Assembly: GCF_000147815.2 (NCBI RefSeq)
Contig: NC_015957.1
Span: 5,456,001 to 5,520,000, forward strand
Direction of reading: 5' to 3'
DNA from: Streptomyces violaceusniger Tu 4113
GTDB lineage: Bacteria > Actinomycetota > Actinomycetes > Streptomycetales > Streptomycetaceae
Length of the DNA stretch: 64,000 nucleotides
Shown here: positions 6,342 through 36,607 of the stretch, piece by piece
How positions within the stretch are numbered: the first letter of the stretch is position 1
Layout: each line of letters opens with the position of its first letter
Program-made: the position numbers and the translations under genes
The notes under the pieces: generated by a model
What the model was told of the DNA's origin: nothing
What the model saw: the letters and a program-made list of their open reading frames with translations, nothing else
Databases searched by the model: none

Positions 6342-7340
6342 TCAGTCGCGCGCGAGCAGTTCGAGCGTGTCGATGACACGGTTCGAGAAGCCCCACTCGT
6401 TGTCGTACCAGGCCACCACCTTGATGTGGTTGCCCTCGACTCGGGTCAGGGCGGCGTCGAAGATCGACGATGCCGGGCGGCGCGTGATGTCGCTGGAGAC
6501 GAGCGGCTCGTCGGAGTACTCCAGGATGCCCTTGAGCTTGCCGTCGGCGGCGGCGCGGTAGGCCGCGAGCACCTCGTCGCGGCTGACTTCCCGTGAGACC
6601 GCGGTGTTCAGCTCCACGATCGAGCCCACCGGGACCGGCACCCGGATCGAGTCGCCCGACAGCTTGCCGTCGAGGTTCGGCAGCACCAGGCCGATGGCCT
6701 TGGCGGCCCCGGTGGTGGTGGGCACGATGTTCACCCCGGCGGCGCGGGCGCGGCGCAGATCGCGGTGGGGGCCGTCCTGGAGGTTCTGCTCCTGGGTGTA
6801 GGCGTGCACCGTGGTCATGAAGCCGTGCTCGATACCGGCCAGGTCGTCCAGTACGGACGCCAGCGGGGCCAGGGCGTTCGTGGTGCACGAGGCGTTCGAG
6901 ACGATCACGTGCTCGGCCGGGTCGTAGGCATCGGTGTTCACGCCGTAGGCGAGCGTGACATCGGCGCCGGCGGACGGGGCGCTCACCAGCACCCGTTGGG
7001 CACCGGCACGCAGGTGTGCGCGGGCGGCATCCGCCGAGGTGAAGCGGCCGGTGGACTCGAGGACGAGGCCCACGCCGAGCTCGGCCCACGGCAAGTTGGC
7101 GGGCTCGCGCTCGGCGAGCACCTTGATGCGGCGGCCGTCGACCACGAGGTCGGTCCCGTCGACCTCGACGGAGCGGCCGAGGGGGCCGAGCGCGCTGTCG
7201 TACTTGAGCAGATGCGCGAGGGACTCGGGAGCGGTGAGGTCGTTGACGGCGACCACTTCGAGATCGCTGTCGCGCTCGAGCAGGGCGCGGAGGGTGTTGC
7301 GTCCGATGCGGCCGAATCCATTGACGGCGATGCGGGTCAT
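6342..7340 (-). CDS. gap: Type I glyceraldehyde-3-phosphate dehydrogenase
   Basis: 332 residues with the GAPDH signature SNASCTTNALAPL (catalytic Cys152), the NAD-binding start AVNGFGRIGRNTLRAL, VHAYTQEQ with the active-site His, and the C-terminal WYDNEWGFSNRV. It converts glyceraldehyde-3-phosphate, NAD and phosphate to 1,3-bisphosphoglycerate in glycolysis. The ATG at 7340 follows AAAGGA. It stands alone, between a convergent XRE gene and an AraC regulator, and is not next to pgk or tpi. It is therefore probably an additional isozyme or a resistance-type copy rather than the housekeeping gene; this is an inference from context only. Confidence 0.95.
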   Translation of the reverse strand: MTRIAVNGFGRIGRNTLRALLERDSDLEVVAVNDLTAPESLAHLLKYDSALGPLGRSVEVDGTDLVVDGRRIKVLAEREPANLPWAELGVGLVLESTGRFTSADAARAHLRAGAQRVLVSAPSAGADVTLAYGVNTDAYDPAEHVIVSNASCTTNALAPLASVLDDLAGIEHGFMTTVHAYTQEQNLQDGPHRDLRRARAAGVNIVPTTTGAAKAIGLVLPNLDGKLSGDSIRVPVPVGSIVELNTAVSREVSRDEVLAAYRAAADGKLKGILEYSDEPLVSSDITRRPASSIFDAALTRVEGNHIKVVAWYDNEWGFSNRVIDTLELLARD

Positions 7341-7462
7341 GGAGGTTCCTTTCGTTCCGCCCCCATCGTCGGCATCCGGATATCGGGCCGACAGCGGCCT
7401 GAACGCCACCGTACGCAAGGATCCCGCCAGCCCTCGATATGCACGCACACCGCTCGGGAAGC

Positions 7463-8410
7463 TCAGGCCGAGAAGGTGTGGCGGTACTCCGTCGGGGAGG
7501 TGCCGAGAATGCGGTGGAAGTGCAGACGCAGGTTCGCGCCGGTGCCGAGGCCGACTCGGTCGGCGATCTGCTCCACGCCCAGATCGGTGCGTTCGAGCAG
7601 CTCGCGTGCCAGGTCCACCCGCGCCCTGAGCACCCACTGCATCGGCGTATAGCCGGTGTCCTCCACGAACCGCCGCGAGAAGGTGCGCGCCGACACCCGC
7701 GCGTTGCGGGCGAGCGCTTCGAGGGTCAGCGGTTCGGCGAGATGCGCCAGGGCCCACTCCCGTGTGCCCGCGAACAGGTCGCCAAGTGGCTCGGGCACAC
7801 TCCGGGGGACGTACTGCGCCTGTCCCCCGCTGCGGTAGGGCGCCGCCACCAGCCGTCTGGCCACGTGGTTGGAGAGCCCGACGCCGTGGTCGCGCCGCAC
7901 CAGGTGCAGGCACAGGTCGATGCCGGATGCCGCGCCCGCCGAGGTGAGCACATCGCCCTCGTCCACGAACAGCACGTTCTCGTCCACCCGCACGAGCGGA
8001 TGTCTCTCGGCGAGAGCCTTGGTGTAGTGCCAGTGGGTCGTCGCCCGCTTGCCGTCGAGCAGGCCCGTCGCCGCCAACGCGAACGCCCCGGTCGAGATGG
8101 CCGCGAGCCGGGTCCCGCGCTCGTGGGCGGCCATGAGCGCGCTGACGACCGCTGCAGACGGTTCCGTGGCCGCCGGGTCCCGATAGCCGGGGATGAAGAC
8201 GGTGTCGGCGTGCTCGAACGCCTCGAGCCCCTCGGCCACGTGATACGAGAGGCCGTCGCCACCGGTCACCAGTCCGGGCGCGGCGCCGCACACCCGCACC
8301 TCGTAGGGCATGCTCGGCCGGTTGGAGAACACCTGCGCGGGGATGCCGACGTCGAGTGGCTTGGCGCCATCGAGCACGAGCACCGCGACATGGTGGTTCT
8401 TCCGGCTCAT
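7463..8410 (-). CDS. GlxA-type AraC-family regulator (DJ-1/PfpI-like + AraC domain)
   Basis: 315 residues. The N-terminal DJ-1/PfpI-like sensing domain covers residues 1 to about 190 (VAVLVLDGAKPLDVGIPAQVF; AISTGAFALAATGLLDGKRATTHW). The C-terminal AraC DNA-binding part has two helix-turn-helix units (LTLEALARNARVSARTFSRR; IADRVGLGTGANLRLHFHRI). In the nucleophile-elbow position the usual Cys is replaced (STGAFALA), as is common in regulators that have lost catalysis. The ATG at 8410 has AAGGAG. It lies 122 bases upstream of gap on the same strand; a link between the two is unproven. Confidence 0.92.
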   Translation of the reverse strand: MSRKNHHVAVLVLDGAKPLDVGIPAQVFSNRPSMPYEVRVCGAAPGLVTGGDGLSYHVAEGLEAFEHADTVFIPGYRDPAATEPSAAVVSALMAAHERGTRLAAISTGAFALAATGLLDGKRATTHWHYTKALAERHPLVRVDENVLFVDEGDVLTSAGAASGIDLCLHLVRRDHGVGLSNHVARRLVAAPYRSGGQAQYVPRSVPEPLGDLFAGTREWALAHLAEPLTLEALARNARVSARTFSRRFVEDTGYTPMQWVLRARVDLARELLERTDLGVEQIADRVGLGTGANLRLHFHRILGTSPTEYRHTFSA

Positions 8411-8474
8411 CGGGCTCCTTCGGCTCTCCCGCGATCGAACGGGCCTGCGCTCACACCCGTGACCTCGATGACGA

Positions 8475-11400
8475 CTACCGCAAACATCCTGCCACTGGCC
8501 GTCCGGGCATCTCGCCGTCCAGCACCCAGCTGAGGTCGTGCTCGGTGTGTTCCCGCGACCGGGCGCTGAGCTGATCGCTGATCCACCTTTTGGTGGGCCG
8601 TGGCACCCGCGGATGGGCGACAAGTGCTTCCAGATCCTCACGGGTTGCCGCGTACGACCGGCGGACCGCGCAGCTCACCAGCCCCAGCGCATACCGCTCG
8701 GGAAAGACCACATGGTCGGCGTCGTCCTCCGGGCCACGCTCCTTGAAGTGCTCCCACAGCGTCCGGTACACGGCCGCAGAACCGTGGTCGAAGATGCTGT
8801 CCATCGCGCCGCGGAGCGCCTTCGCGAGGTGGTTCTCCGCGGCGCGGCCCTGCTGGGAGGCCACGGCCGCGCCGATGACGCGGATCAGCAGCTCGGCGGC
8901 GGGTGCCGCGCCGTGCGCGGTGCTGAGGCGGCGCACCAGTTGGCCGAGCCCGCTGATCAGTCCGGCGTCGGTCGGTGGGGCGAAGGCGAGGTCGAGGGCC
9001 GTGGTGAGGGCCGATGGGGTGAGGGGGCCGGATTTGCAGGCGGCGTGGAGCAGGGCCTTGCGGGCGGCGTTCCGGGTACTGGCCGATGCGTCGTCGAGGC
9101 GGGCGATGTCTCCCGTGGCGTCGAACACCAGCTCCGAGAGGAAGGTGTGTGCCGTGGCGTACTGAGCGGGTTCGCCCGCGGCGATGGTTCCCACCAGCCC
9201 GAGGAAGGCCGCCCGGGTCTTCTGGTCGGAGAAGGTGCCGTACCGCGGCAGGAGTTGGGTCAGCTCGGGTGCGGGGAGAGTGCCGGCCGACACGGAGCAT
9301 TCCCAGAGCGTGAGTGCCTGGCGCTGCCGCTTTCCGCTGTGGCCCTCGGCGATTTCGTCCGCGATCAGCCCGGTGAGGGCGGAGGCCGAGGCGCGTAGCG
9401 CGCCCAGCACCCGCTCGTGGGCGAGGGGTGGCAGCGGGCCGGTGCCCTTCTTGGCCCGGCCGGTGGTGAGGGCTTCAAGGAGCACGGTGTCGGCGTCCAT
9501 GAGCGACAGGTTCACCAGCAGGCCGATGTGGCGCTCGGTGTGCAGACCGGAGTCCGTGACGGCCCGGTGGAGTGAGCGGCGGACGAGGTTGCGGGCGGCC
9601 GCGGGGGCGGTGGTCGCCTTCTCGATCCTGCTCACCGCGGTGGGGTGGCCGCCGAGCGCGGCCGGCAGAAGGAGCGTGGCCAGGCCGTCCCGGGACAGCC
9701 ACAGGTCGGAGTCGGCGTCCCAGCCGGAGTGTTCCAGGACCTGCCGGACGCGGTGCGGGGGAACGTCGCGGTTGGCGAGGATCCGGCGGGCGACCAGCGC
9801 TCGCCGCTGCGGGGGCGGGACCGGCTGGTTCTCGGGGCAGGGCAGGGCCTTCAGCATGACCGCGAGCCGGTGTACGAGGCTTTCCGCGGCGGCGCAGTCG
9901 GCGCTGAGCAGTTGGGGAAAGACCATCCGGTGCTGCAGTGCGTGGAGCGCTCCTTGTCCGATGATGTCCAGACAGCGGTCGAGGGTGGCCTCGATGGCCC
10001 AGTGGCCGTGCGGCAGCGTGGCCAGGATCGCTGTGGCGGCGATGAGTCCGGCGCTGCCCGCGATGTCGTGGTCGTCCGCTTCGAGTAGCGCCACCGCATG
10101 GTCGAGGCGATGTGTCCAGGGGTGGGTTCCGGGGGCCGGATCGCCGTCGGCGCCGTGAGCGCCGTCGCCGGGGAGTCCGTGGTCATGGGTCCACGAGGCG
10201 GCCACCACCCTGGCCAGGGCCGATTGGAAGAGCTCGAGGTCGTACGACTTCGGCGCGACGCGCACACGCTGGACACGCTCCTGGACGGCGGCGGCCCACT
10301 CCGGCGAGCCCAGTGTCCCCCAGTGCCGGGCCCACAGGGTCATGACCCCGGACGCCAGCTCCGCCAGCCCCCGGGACAGGCCGAAGTCGAGCATCTCCAT
10401 GAGGCCCTGCCGGGCGGATGCCACATCGACGTGTGACGTCAGCACGAGCAGCCGAGGCAGGACCTCGATGCCCGCGCCGCCCGTACGGCGCCCCGTCAGT
10501 TCCCGTACGCAGCCCCAGTCGGCCAGCGCGGCATGGACGGTGAGCGAGTTCTGGGCGGCCAGCCGTTCCAGCGCTTCGAGCACGGCCTCCTGCAGGCTGG
10601 GCTCCTTCCTCTCCCACAGCCCGCGGAGCTGCGGGAGGAGGGCGTCGACGTCCGTGTCGCGTACGGTCGGGGCCAGGACCGCGTACCGTCGGGCGACGCC
10701 GTGCGGCGCCGTCGCGAGCAGCGGCCCGACGGACACGCCCACGGCCGGATTCCGCGCCGCGACGGCCACGGCGACGGTGTGCAGGATGACGGCGTCCTCG
10801 TGCGCCGCCATCCGCATCAGGGTGTCCCGTACCGGGCCGCGATACCTTTCTGACCCGGCGGCCAGCATGAGGAACTGTTCGAGGATCGCCCCGACGAAGA
10901 AGTCACGGGGATGGGACCCGACCCACTCGCACAGCGACAGCAGCGCTCCCGCCCCGGTGCGGAGCAGCAGGCCACGCGCGGCCGCGTACTCGAACATGGT
11001 CTGGTGGAAGAAGTGGATACCGTCCGAGGCTCCCCTGGCCAGCACGCCCCGGTCGGTCAGCAGCTCCAGGGACGACCGGACGCGGGCCGGTTCGTACGGC
11101 CGCGAGGGGCGTGGGCCGCCGTGCGCCGAGGTGAGCCGCTCGACCAGCTCCTCGCGCGACAGCTCGGTCCGGCCCGCCGACATCAGCACGACGGCGATCG
11201 CGCCGGTGATCGAGGAGAGGTCCTCCGGCGCCATGGCGCTCTGATTGCCGTGATGGCGGCGGTCGGTGACGACCCGATGGTCCCAGTAGCGGCGGTAGAG
11301 GCCTGTGGCGTCGATCTCGGCGCTGGGGAACGCCCCGTCGTCCCGGGCGAGTTCGAACAGCAGCCGCAACTGGAGGGGGCTTCTGCACACCTCGCGCACC

Positions 11401-13003
11401 GGCAGTCCGCGGGCGACGGGCTCCATCAGCCTCCGTACCCGTGCCTCGTCATCCCGGGGAACGGCGTCGGGGCAGTAGAGCGCGGCGTGTCCACGGATGG
11501 CGTGCGGAATCTCGCTGTCGTCGTACGGACCCAGCGACATCCGGATGAACCCGGTGCGCAGCCGGTTCGCCTCCTCCGGCCGCGAGGTCAGCACCAGGCG
11601 GACACCGGCGGCGGCGAGATCCTCGCACAGATCGAGCAGCGTCATCTCGTGGTAGTCGTCGTGCAGCAGCAGATCGGCGGTGTCGAGGAGCACGACCGGT
11701 GTACGCCCCCGCGTCCGGGCGTGCGTCGCCCCGGACACCACTGTCGCGGGGGTCAGCATGGGCCTCCCGGGGGCGCCGCTCAGGGGGCGCAGCAGCCAGG
11801 CGGCGTTCACCAGGAACACCTCGGCGTCCTCCAGGGCGGTCAGATCCCGGGCGAGGCCCACAACAGGCTGCTCTTGCCGTTTCCGGCGTCCCCGGTGACC
11901 AGGACCGCCTTCGGATCACCGTCGTAGAGGGCCTCCACCGCCCGGTCCTGGACGGCGCGCCGTACGTAGAGTCCGCCGCTGAGCTGCGGCGGGGAGCCGG
12001 TGCCGCGGTCCGGGCGGGGGGAATCCACGAGGTCCAGGTCGTCCGAGAACCTCCGGGCCCAGCGGAGGAGCTGGCGGTGTGCGGCCGGGCCGGTGTCGTC
12101 CGCTGGGGTTCCCGCATCCGGATGCGGGAACGGGGCGGAGGGCTGAGCAGGGGCCGGGGCCGACGGGCCCTCCGGGAATCGTTCCGGTGCCGGGCCCGTG
12201 GGAGTCCCCGGCCCGGGCAGGGCCGGGCCGCCACCGGGCGGCAGTTCGCGGAGGACGGAGAAGGCGAAGGCGGCGGCGTTGCGCGCCGCGCGGGACTGCC
12301 AGCCCTCGGCATCGGCGTCGTACTTCTCCCCGTCGGCCCGGTCGCTGATTCCGCGGACGATCAGGGCGGGCAAGGCGGCGTTGAGATGGGCCGCCTGCGC
12401 CACGCCCGCGCCCTCCATCTCGATGGCGGCGGCGTCCTGGTAGTTCCGGCGCAGTTGCCGTCGCAGCGGCGAGTCCGCCGAGTTGAGGACGACCTCCCCG
12501 GCGGCCACGGGCTTGAGGTGGACGGCCGGACAGGAGGCGCCAGGTGAACGTTCCGGCAGCAGCCCGGTCCAGGAACCGGACCTGCGGGCGTAGCGGGCGA
12601 GCTGGTCGAGTTCCTGACGTACCGGCCAGACCCTCGGGCGGGAGTGGAACTCGCCGTCCTCGTCCTTGCCGCCGTGGTAGGCGTACACATGCGTGGCCAC
12701 GACGACGTCCCCGAGCTCGATATCGCCCTTGAGCGCCCCGGCCACCCCGACGAATGCCACGGCGCGCGGGTGGAACATGGCGATCGCCCGCTCGGTCAGC
12801 ACGGCCGCGCCCTGGTTGCCGTCGCCGAGTTCGGCAAGCGCCACCCGCCACGGCGTACCGTCGAGCCGTCCCACCTCGAACAGGGTGCCGCTCGGGTGGA
12901 GTTGCGGCCGGGGATCGACCAGGTGCGCCCGAACCGCCTCGTACTCCACGTCCAGTGCGGTCAGCACGACAAGCGAATCACTGTGATGCCCGGCGCTCTC
13001 CAC
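8475..13003 (-). pseudogene. Nucleoside phosphorylase-NACHT STAND protein, frame-broken after Walker A
   Basis: Two overlapping frames read as one protein of about 1,509 residues. Frame 1 (13003-11840, GTG start after a GGGGGGA ribosome site) has a nucleoside phosphorylase/nucleosidase domain at about residues 8-250 (FVGVAGALKGDIELGDVVVA; EMEGAG 195-200; RGISDRADGEK 217-227), a Pro-rich linker, and a Walker A GDAGNGKS at 371-378. Frame 2 (11861-8475) continues with Walker B VVLLDTADLLL, a sensor-like LTSRPEE, and a long helical repeat region to the end. Inserting one G in the minus-strand GGG run (11857-11859) restores LLWGLARDLTALE across the junction. Phosphorylase-NACHT fusions are known or predicted anti-phage STAND proteins: the NACHT part senses, the nucleosidase part is the effector. 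As written the protein would end just after Walker A. This may be a true lesion or an assembly indel. Confidence 0.8.
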
Positions 13004-13180
13004 GTTTCCCCCCGGCCACGGTCGACCCTGGTGCGGCCCGCGGGCGAAATGCTACCGTCCGCCGGACTCCTGGGGCTGCGACCACCAGGAGTGGTGAACC
13101 GCGACGGGAGTACGAGTCGCCGGACGCGCCTGAGGTCCCGCCGGTACCGCCGGGCAGCGGCGGATGCTTGGATGCGCGGT

Positions 13181-14284
13181 ATGGATCTGTCCCGTACGGG
13201 CGCTTCTGCCCCGAGGCCGACGGCTGTGCCGCCCTTCGACCCCGAACTGAGCGCCGCGCTGGAGCCCTTGGGCAACGGGCCCAGGGAGCCGGTCACTCCC
13301 GGGAATCTCGCCGCCCGGCAAGAGCGGGACGCCGCGACCCGGCCCAGGCCGACGGCCGAGGACCTGCGGGCCGATGGCCGTTTCGAGGTGGCGGAGCTGA
13401 CCGTTCCCGGGCTGCGGGACGGCCCCGATGTCACACTGGTGAGTGTGCGGCCCGCCGGGCGGAAAGGACCGCTGCCGCTGCTGTACTACATGCACGGCGG
13501 CGCGATGATCATGGGCAACGCATGGTCGGTGCTGCCGCGGATCCTTCGCGAGTGGGTCCTCCCGCTGGACATGGCCGTCATCTCGGTCGAGTACCGGCTG
13601 GCACCGCGGACGCGGTACCCCGGACCGCTGGAGGACTGCTACGCGGGGCTTCTCCGGGCCACCGGGCACGCGGGCGAACTGGGCATCGACGCGGACCGCG
13701 TCATCGTCGGCGGGAAGAGCGCCGGTGGCGGCCTCGCCGCGGCCCTCGCCCTGCTGGTCCGTGACCGCGGCGGTCCCGGCATCCTCGGGCAGTTGCTGCT
13801 GTGCCCGATGCTCGACGACCGCGGGCACACGTTCTCCAGCCACCAGATGTCGGGCCTCGGGATGTGGGATCTCATCTCCCATGAGACCGCCTGGAAAGCA
13901 CTGCTGGGTGACGGCTACGGCGCGGCGGACCTGCCTCCCTACGCGGCTCCTGCCCGCGCCACGGACCTGTCCGGTCTCCCGCCGGCGTTCATCGACGTCG
14001 GCTCGGCGGAGATGTTCCGCGACGAAGACGTGGCGTACGCGAACGCGATCTGGCAGGCCGGCGGCCAGGCCGAACTGCACGTATGGCCCGGCGCCTATCA
14101 CGGTTTCGACGGCTTGGCGCCGCAGGCGGCCATCAGTAAAGACGCACGCGAGGCCCGTACCCGCTGGCTGAGGCGCCTCCTCGCCCACTCAAGGAGCACA
14201 AGGAGCACAGAGCCGCGGACCGGGGAACCCCGGGCGCCGGGGGCAAAAGCAGTGGACATCGCGTCCCCCAGCGGTGAATGGTGA
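13181..14284 (+). CDS. HSL-family alpha/beta hydrolase (esterase)
   Basis: 367 residues. The oxyanion-hole motif is YMHGGAMIMG, the nucleophile elbow GKSAGGG, the acid is probably in DVGSAEMFRDED, and the catalytic His is in AYHGFDG. This is the hormone-sensitive-lipase type of short-chain carboxylesterase. No signal peptide is visible, so it should be cytoplasmic. The start is uncertain: ATG at 13172 or 13181, both with weak ribosome sites. A much longer in-frame extension to 12644 runs through the NACHT gene and is rejected. A methyltransferase follows after four bases, so they are probably co-transcribed. Confidence 0.88.
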   Translation: MDLSRTGASAPRPTAVPPFDPELSAALEPLGNGPREPVTPGNLAARQERDAATRPRPTAEDLRADGRFEVAELTVPGLRDGPDVTLVSVRPAGRKGPLPLLYYMHGGAMIMGNAWSVLPRILREWVLPLDMAVISVEYRLAPRTRYPGPLEDCYAGLLRATGHAGELGIDADRVIVGGKSAGGGLAAALALLVRDRGGPGILGQLLLCPMLDDRGHTFSSHQMSGLGMWDLISHETAWKALLGDGYGAADLPPYAAPARATDLSGLPPAFIDVGSAEMFRDEDVAYANAIWQAGGQAELHVWPGAYHGFDGLAPQAAISKDAREARTRWLRRLLAHSRSTRSTEPRTGEPRAPGAKAVDIASPSGEW

Positions 14285-14288
14285 CGGT

Positions 14289-15029
14289 ATGAACCAGGAG
14301 GAGATCTGGGACGTCGACGCCGCCCAGCGCTACGACACGCCGGGCACGGGCATGTTCGCGTCCGAGATCTTGGAGCCGGCCGTGGACCGCCTGGCTGAGC
14401 TCGCAGGCGGCGGAGCGGCGCTCGAGTTCGCCATCGGCACCGGCCGGGTGGCCGTCCCGCTCGCCGGACGAGGGGTCCCGGTCACCGGGATCGAGCTGTC
14501 GCTTCCGATGATCCGTCAACTGCGTACCAGGGCCGACGAAGCGACGATCCCCGTGATCGTGGGCGACATGGCGACTTCCGTGGCTCCCGGGGAGTACACG
14601 CTCGTCTATCTCGTCTACAACACCATCTCCAACCTGCTCACCCAAGCCGAGCAGGTGGAGTGCTTCGGCAACGCCGCCCGCCACCTCGAGCCCGGTGGCA
14701 GGTTCGTGATCGAACTCTGGGTGCCCGAGCTGCGCAAGCTCCCGCCGGGCCAGACGGGCACCGTCTGGCAAGCCGAGCCCGGCTACATCGGGTTGGACAC
14801 CTACGACGTACTGCGCCAGCACGTCGTCTCACACCACTTCCGGTTCGACGACAGCAAGGAAGCTCGGCTGACCCGCAGTCCGCACCGGTACATCTGGCCG
14901 GCCGAACTCGACCTCATGGCTCAGCTCGCCGGATTCGAGTTGGAGACCAGGCATGCGGACTGGTCCGGCGCCGAATTCACCGCCGAGTCGCGCTCTCATG
15001 TCTCCGTCTACCGCATCCCGCCGAGCTGA
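14289..15029 (+). CDS. Class I SAM-dependent methyltransferase
   Basis: 246 residues with a SAM-binding motif I (ALEFAIGTGRVAVPLAGRG), acidic motif after strand 2 (VTGIELS), and PVIVGDMATS. The substrate is unknown. ATG at 14289 is preferred over GTG at 14274, which would overlap the esterase stop. It sits directly downstream of the esterase, so a joint role is possible. Confidence 0.85.
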   Translation: MNQEEIWDVDAAQRYDTPGTGMFASEILEPAVDRLAELAGGGAALEFAIGTGRVAVPLAGRGVPVTGIELSLPMIRQLRTRADEATIPVIVGDMATSVAPGEYTLVYLVYNTISNLLTQAEQVECFGNAARHLEPGGRFVIELWVPELRKLPPGQTGTVWQAEPGYIGLDTYDVLRQHVVSHHFRFDDSKEARLTRSPHRYIWPAELDLMAQLAGFELETRHADWSGAEFTAESRSHVSVYRIPPS

Positions 15030-35633: not shown

Positions 35634-36607
35634 CCACAGCCACCTTCACCCTCGTCATGGTCCCCCCGCTGCCGGACGAGACACGGTCCTGGCCCGACAA
35701 GCTCGTGGAGGCCGTTCCCGGAATCGAGGTCCTCTGCCCCGAAAGCCCCGAGGACGTCGGCGCCGCGCTGGGCCGCGCCGACGCCGCGTACGGCACGCTC
35801 ACTCCCGAACTCCTCGACAGGGCAGGGAACTTGCGATGGTTGCAGGCTCCTCAGGCGGGGCCTCCTCCCGGCTTCTACCACCCCGCGCTCGTGCGTCATC
35901 CGGTGCGGGTGACGAATATGCGGGACACGTACACCGACCATGTGGCCACGCACACCCTGGCGTTGGTCCTGGCTCTGGCCCGGCAACTCCCCCACTATGT
36001 GCGCGAGCAGGCCGCCGCCAACTGGGCACCGGACTGGTCGGACGGCGGGGTCCTTCCGCTCAGTGAGGCGCGTGCGCTCGTCGTCGGTACGGGTGCGATC
36101 GGTGCCGAGACGGGGCGGCTGCTCGCCGCGTTCGGAACCCGCGTGGAGGGCGTCGATGCCCGGATCACCGAGGCGCCGCCGGGTTTCGACCGGGTTCTGC
36201 CCGCCGACCTCCTGGATCGCGTCCTTTCTCAGGCGGACATCGTGATCCTCACCGTGCCGCACACTCCGCAGACGGAAGGGCTGATGGACGCCGCCCGTAT
36301 CGCGTTGATGAAACAGGGAGCCTGCCTCATCAACGTCGGCCGCGGTCCCACCGTCCGGCTCGACGACCTGGTCACGGCCTTGGACACGGGACGTCTGCGG
36401 GGCGCCGCCCTCGACGTCATGGAGCAGGAGCCGCTGCCGCCGGACCACCCTCTGTGGCGTCACCCCAAAGCACTGGTCACCCCCCATGTCGCGGGGGCCG
36501 GACCGCATGCCGCGGCACGCCGGTTCGAGGTGCTCGCGGACAACGCGCGGCGGTTCGCCGCCGGGCAGCCGTTGATCAACGTAGTGGACAAGTCGCAATG
36601 GTTCTGA
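35630..36607 (+). CDS. D-2-hydroxyacid dehydrogenase family protein
   Basis: 325 residues. The dinucleotide-binding motif is ARALVVGTGAIGAETGRLL, the catalytic Arg lies in INVGRGPTVRLDDL, the Glu in ALDVMEQEPLPPDHPLW, and the His in VTPHVAGAG. It should oxidise or reduce a 2-hydroxy/2-keto acid with NAD(P). ATG 35630 overlaps the upstream stop, so it is coupled to the unknown 34401 protein and probably handles its product. Transcription ends at the hairpin 36735-36757. Confidence 0.9.
   Translation: MTTATFTLVMVPPLPDETRSWPDKLVEAVPGIEVLCPESPEDVGAALGRADAAYGTLTPELLDRAGNLRWLQAPQAGPPPGFYHPALVRHPVRVTNMRDTYTDHVATHTLALVLALARQLPHYVREQAAANWAPDWSDGGVLPLSEARALVVGTGAIGAETGRLLAAFGTRVEGVDARITEAPPGFDRVLPADLLDRVLSQADIVILTVPHTPQTEGLMDAARIALMKQGACLINVGRGPTVRLDDLVTALDTGRLRGAALDVMEQEPLPPDHPLWRHPKALVTPHVAGAGPHAAARRFEVLADNARRFAAGQPLINVVDKSQWF

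Follow-up and report, generated by a model that had tools for sequence, protein, structure and literature searches.

A probable nucleosidase-STAND gene of Streptomyces whose reading frame breaks between Walker A and Walker B in S. violaceusniger Tu 4113

According to the accessible parts of the sources cited here, bacterial NACHT proteins have their sensor at the C-terminus and their effector at the N-terminus (PMC12169576), and in the three-gene, two-component-like system Detocs a PNP effector cleaves ATP (PMC11249213). PNP_UDP is a common effector of fungal NLRs (PMC4986451, PMC9815663, PMC10197012), and an ATP hydrolase activity is cited for fungal PNP_UDP (PMC12881547). Surveys of NTP-dependent conflict systems in multicellular bacteria predict PNPase as a swappable effector beside STAND NTPases (PMC7159879, PMC8195603). 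Our literature search, whose coverage mostly excluded subscription papers, found no paper naming the protein family described below.

The locus lies in a window of 64,000 nucleotides, the whole stretch of DNA that was analysed (C3:5456001-5520000 in genome G000, S. violaceusniger Tu 4113; 11.1 Mb, 3 contigs). Like bNACHT proteins such as bNACHT25 (PMC12169576), it joins an N-terminal enzyme, a central NACHT-like switch and a C-terminal sensor; however, bNACHT25 has a DNase effector and NCH1, whereas this candidate anti-phage locus has a nucleosidase and a HEAT-like sensor. It shares a PNP-superfamily effector domain with Detocs (PMC11249213), but carries it fused to a STAND switch, and its neighbourhood showed no partner genes of the Detocs kind. 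Fungal PNP_UDP-NACHT NLR-like proteins (PMC4986451, PMC9815663, PMC10197012) likewise place PNP_UDP N-terminal to NACHT and repeats, although their repeats are WD40, TPR or ankyrin and the present protein is actinobacterial with a HEAT-like solenoid. The conflict systems of multicellular bacteria, as far as the accessible text of the surveys goes (PMC7159879, PMC8195603), are linked to VMAP, EAD, bDLD or TRADD-N rather than built as this exact chain. Finally, the PNP part matches positions 240-481 of the 506-position PADLOC profile for a CBASS PN-superfamily effector (PDLC00759), but the other half of that profile is absent and no cyclase gene was recognised among the neighbours scanned.

On the minus strand, a single coding signal runs from 13003 to 8475, with a frame switch at 11840-11861. 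The features are as follows.

11840..13003, minus strand: P0001, the first fragment (387 aa, GTG start), with nucleosidase effector, Pro-rich linker and Walker A
12251..12973, minus strand: PNP_UDP_1 domain, P0001 residues 11-251 (Pfam, 109.5 bits)
11870..11893, minus strand: Walker A GDAGNGKS, P0001 residues 371-378 (by motif)
11840..11861, minus strand: overlap of the two frames (22 bases), the site of the single-base frame change
8475..11861, minus strand: P0002, the second fragment (1128 aa), with the rest of the NACHT-like module and helical repeats
11664..11699, minus strand: Walker B region at LLDTADLL (D60, T61 and D63 of P0002; by alignment)
10989..11012, minus strand: FFHQTMFE motif (by alignment), which we take to be the winged-helix region
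10629..11861, minus strand: NACHT-like module from Walker B onward, P0002 residues 1 to about 411
8517..10628, minus strand: HEAT-like helical repeats, P0002 residues about 412-1115, the presumed sensor

We consider it probable that these parts form one gene encoding an MTAN-like nucleosidase, a linker, a NACHT-type STAND switch and a HEAT-like sensor, acting by the mechanism proposed below, with the switch dead in this strain. The two frames, with EMEGAG, RGISDRADG and GDAGNGKS in one and LLDTADLL and FFHQTMFE in the other, were reproduced at the coordinates reported by an earlier sequence-only reading, as was the GTG at 11861 with which the second frame begins, 22 bases inside the first. GC content by codon position moves from one frame to the other between blocks 11861-12160 and 11561-11860; the coding signal is strong on either side, so neither frame is a chance one. 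A G-rich ribosome-binding site precedes the GTG at 13003, and none that is clear precedes the GTG at 11861 (both by eye). No promoter or terminator was found by a scan that covers Streptomyces promoters poorly.

The earlier reading had placed a single-base frame change in a GGG run (11857-11859), and all six close relatives aligned over 11700-12100 differ from the window in length there (L006 has additional gaps, and the distant L008 failed to align in this interval). P0001 runs out of frame just past the P-loop. The break falls between Walker A and Walker B, and homologues have the gene intact. The best matches to P0002 in the database with a PNP domain as well, the seven proteins P0003-P0009, each consist of one chain (1479-1529 aa), and 9 of the 10 Streptomyces relatives compared have one uninterrupted ORF (1514-1917 aa, the 1917 aa frame of S. 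violaceusniger being probably over-extended at its start). In the tenth, S. antioxidans (L085, on the same contig as G356:C217), the gene starts 367 bases from the contig end, and its copy lacks the PNP part because the contig ends there. Walker A, Walker B and FFHQTMFE are present in all ten (Walker A once as GEAGNGKS), so by motif both Walker elements lie on one polypeptide in every relative, as opposed to split frames in the window copy. EMEGAG is exact in eight of the ten, S. sabulosicollis reading EMEAAG. The two-frame layout is thus a break and not a design, and because the one-base change leaves the two Walker motifs on separate products, the switch should be dead in this strain.

Selection has acted alike on broken and intact copies. 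The window's two parts give dN/dS values of 0.15-0.29 against the 10 relatives (the S. antioxidans N-part value rests on 111 codons and is to be discounted), and the relatives among themselves give 0.16-0.30 (45 pairs), so no decay is visible. The single-ORF relatives are under purifying selection, and the similarity of both halves to intact copies means that the break is either recent or an artefact: this strain's copy has either become a pseudogene recently or carries a local sequence error. We found no marked peak of the kind an arms race in the sensor might leave; the highest 100-codon pN/pS was 0.43, apart from 1.22 in a short last window with few codons.

The effector end of the proposed chain can be recognised by fold and by residue. 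P0001 scores 109.5 bits against PNP_UDP_1 (PF01048), far above the curated cut-off of 25.1, matches the PADLOC PN-superfamily effector profile at 1.8e-20, and adopts the MTAN fold in structure comparison; the nearest solved relatives of the domain are metabolic MTAN and futalosine hydrolase. The equivalents of MTAN Glu12, Glu174 and Asp197 are all present as E20, E197 and D221, and are conserved in 50/51, 50/51 and 49/51 sequences, respectively, of alignment A3 (P0001 with 50 of 115 PNP-domain proteins). PDB titles mention Glu12 and Asp197 by name, and Glu174 we take to be a further MTAN catalytic residue. Among the same 51 sequences, K or R occupies position 113 in 42 and R122 is kept in 47, and these conserved basic positions might suit a phosphorylated substrate, although K113 is replaced by T or S in some intact relatives.

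Elsewhere in the genome, L114 (G000:C3:3893400-3894800) encodes a further PNP of this type in a stop-free frame of 403 aa, with 44% identity across 270 residues. Of the genome's six further PF01048 loci, L111, L112, L113 and L115 could not be matched reliably to P0001 (E 0.2 or worse), and the substrate pocket could be compared for L114 and L116 only.

The switch is less readily named by profile. P0002 matches no Pfam family, including no repeat family; a PF05729 search of this genome did not list the locus; and P0003, the closest of the intact relatives, scores just 24.4 of the 34 bits needed for nSTAND_NTPase5, with no NACHT match. The NACHT label given by the sequence-only reading stands on motifs, homologues and fold, Pfam itself assigning this gene no NACHT. 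Among 21 homologues chosen from 61 for P0002, PF05729 matches 10 at E<=0.01 and nSTAND_NTPase5 matches 14; D60, T61 and D63 of Walker B and H286, Q287 and E291 of FFHQTMFE are invariant in 42 aligned sequences; and structure re-alignment gives the switch module an NLR-type fold, the 50 Foldseek matches listed for P0002 being solenoids only, with NLR entries coming from the re-alignment alone. The same reading had described about 1,000 residues of helical repeats. Such repeats are present, with karyopherin- and SF3b-like structure matches rather than the leucine-rich repeats of a strict NLR, but they account for about 700 residues and follow a NACHT-like module of about 410. We also observed that a distant homologue from Glaciihabitans (P0046, 1015 aa) has a record beginning exactly at Walker B, as if it too were cut between Walker A and Walker B.

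The idea that this is a nucleosidase-NACHT fusion of STAND architecture is borne out by the homologues, which also exchange domains in both directions, as conflict proteins would be expected to do. The N-termini of the 21 scanned homologues include PNP_UDP_1 (6), TIR_2 (2), TCAD9 (2) and BTAD (1), others being unrelated by eye, and the PNP domain in turn is joined to NB-ARC/TPR, WD40, HEAT, Hsp70 or kinase partners among 115 proteins. The same kind of swapping is described in the accessible parts of published surveys (PMC7159879, PMC8195603).

The gene is accessory, being present or absent as a unit. Any match to it was found in 187 of the 392 genomes sampled; of the 391 besides this one, 6 hold a close orthologue (87-96%). 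Five of those six genomes are colinear across the gene and both flanks; in the sixth, G356, the contig ends inside the gene. Genome G359, not among the 187, has an empty site, where blocks matching window positions 6342-8501 (90.6%) and 13159-15024 (86.8%) lie 48 bases apart as against 4657 in the window, so that 8502-13158, nearly the whole gene, is replaced by 48 bases (L110 then L109, joined positions 36156-36203). Searching that 40 kb of G359 with the P0001 and P0002 fragments yielded nothing better than E 2.4. The seven named loci found with P0002 are all from Streptomyces (S. endocoffeicus, S. violaceusniger, S. rugosispiralis, S. antioxidans, S. niphimycinicus, S. iranensis and S. sabulosicollis), species that we take to be the S. 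violaceusniger clade, and the cluster holding the window's own protein (P0170) has 6 member sequences.

Several observations concern the surroundings. G371, one of the five colinear genomes, carries about 7.6 kb of extra sequence beside the locus, between positions matching window 7429-7430 and 7462. A plus-strand ORF at 12644-14284 overlaps the PNP gene in antisense; similarity to hydrolases begins only near its residue 270, so its true start probably lies downstream. At the scale of the contig, G000:C3 begins near dnaA (988-1473) and the window is mid-contig, whereas in G383, G164 and G095 the gene sits no more than about 0.6 Mb from a contig end; G000:C3 may be a linear chromosome that was closed at its ends and then rotated.

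Is the break real? A base-calling or assembly error, which would leave the strain with an intact gene, seems to us somewhat unlikely. The relatives carry the gene intact, selection shows no decay, the site is a short G run within a GC-rich genome, and in assembled sequence a break seen in a single strain looks the same as a sequencing error; a local error may therefore be present at the break. However, a coding-filtered split test of 400 kb of this genome against 400 kb of the relative G383 found none of the 204 core reference ORFs to be split (180 were whole and 24 partial or otherwise unresolved), and in reverse none of 208 (189 whole, 19 partial or other). Such errors are therefore rare in this genome and the assembly is not generally broken, making an error-ridden assembly unlikely. 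The test recovered the window's own broken gene as a positive control against both G383 and G164, once the coding-frame filter had been loosened by removing its overlap rule; an earlier version dropped P0001 and the control failed. Cruder counts are noisier. Gaps in DNA alignments suggest frame breaks in 8 of 83 comparable G383 ORFs relative to this genome and 4 of 90 in reverse, or 8/181 and 6/185 with an interior rule and twice the sequence, and several of these sit near ORF starts or in gap-rich alignments; with ORFs of any composition there were 43 and 53 core splits, many of them probably shadow frames. Also against an error is S. asiaticus, whose protein P0172 (297 aa) is family-like to about residue 245 and then resembles the alternate frame (by eye, from the protein record only), and reads ISGRADG for ISDRADG, with G replacing the catalytic D. 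Since this copy is independently damaged, loss does seem to occur.

The opposite possibility, raised in the sequence-only reading, is that both frames are functional, as two reassembling polypeptides or a frameshift-regulated protein. The second frame does have its own GTG within the 22-base overlap and both halves look conserved, but all nine relatives with the gene wholly on a contig have one ORF, the GTG at 11861 follows no clear ribosome-binding site, the run is short, and, S. asiaticus and the contig-cut copy aside, the 120 entries listed out of 1693 short PNP proteins showed no evident split pair. We regard this as very improbable, and scarcely credit its most specific form, a split NLR in which a free nucleosidase with a P-loop and a free Walker B/sensor protein would reassemble on a trigger to form a two-chain ATPase site. 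A two-gene or programmed-frameshift design was rejected on account of the single-ORF relatives.

As for function, in the intact form the HEAT-like sensor would meet a trigger, probably made or altered by a phage, upon which the NACHT-type switch would oligomerise with ATP. The gathered nucleosidase domains would then cleave the base off a purine nucleotide of the cell, and growth would stop before the invader multiplies; ATP is the likeliest substrate, as it is what published PNP immune effectors cleave. Both substrate and anti-phage role are drawn by analogy. We think it unlikely that the family is instead a STAND-controlled nucleosidase for development, metabolism or quarrels between bacteria. 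Streptomyces is developmentally complex, MTAN and futalosine hydrolase are the nearest neighbours in sequence and fold, and no defence-type Pfam domain occurs in the 10 neighbouring ORFs scanned (2656-23662), so there is no defence island there; the neighbours include a DJ-1/AraC regulator, an alpha/beta hydrolase, a methyltransferase and, judging by motif, presumably a GAPDH-like gene. Nevertheless, the equivalog cut-offs are not reached for MTA/SAH nucleosidase (NF004079, 83.6 of 169 bits) or futalosine hydrolase (TIGR03664, 61.7 of 124.7 bits), the gene is accessory and gone from the same site in G359, and effector swapping fits conflict proteins better than a developmental or metabolic role.

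Proteins of this kind are known from fungi and have been predicted for multicellular bacteria; the locus contributes an actinobacterial member of PNP-NACHT-HEAT build. It also offers natural contrasts, the gene being intact in sister species, damaged here and in S. asiaticus, and absent, with the site empty, in another relative. Should the defence reading hold, the locus could reveal whether an ATP-cleaving effector is driven directly by a NACHT switch.
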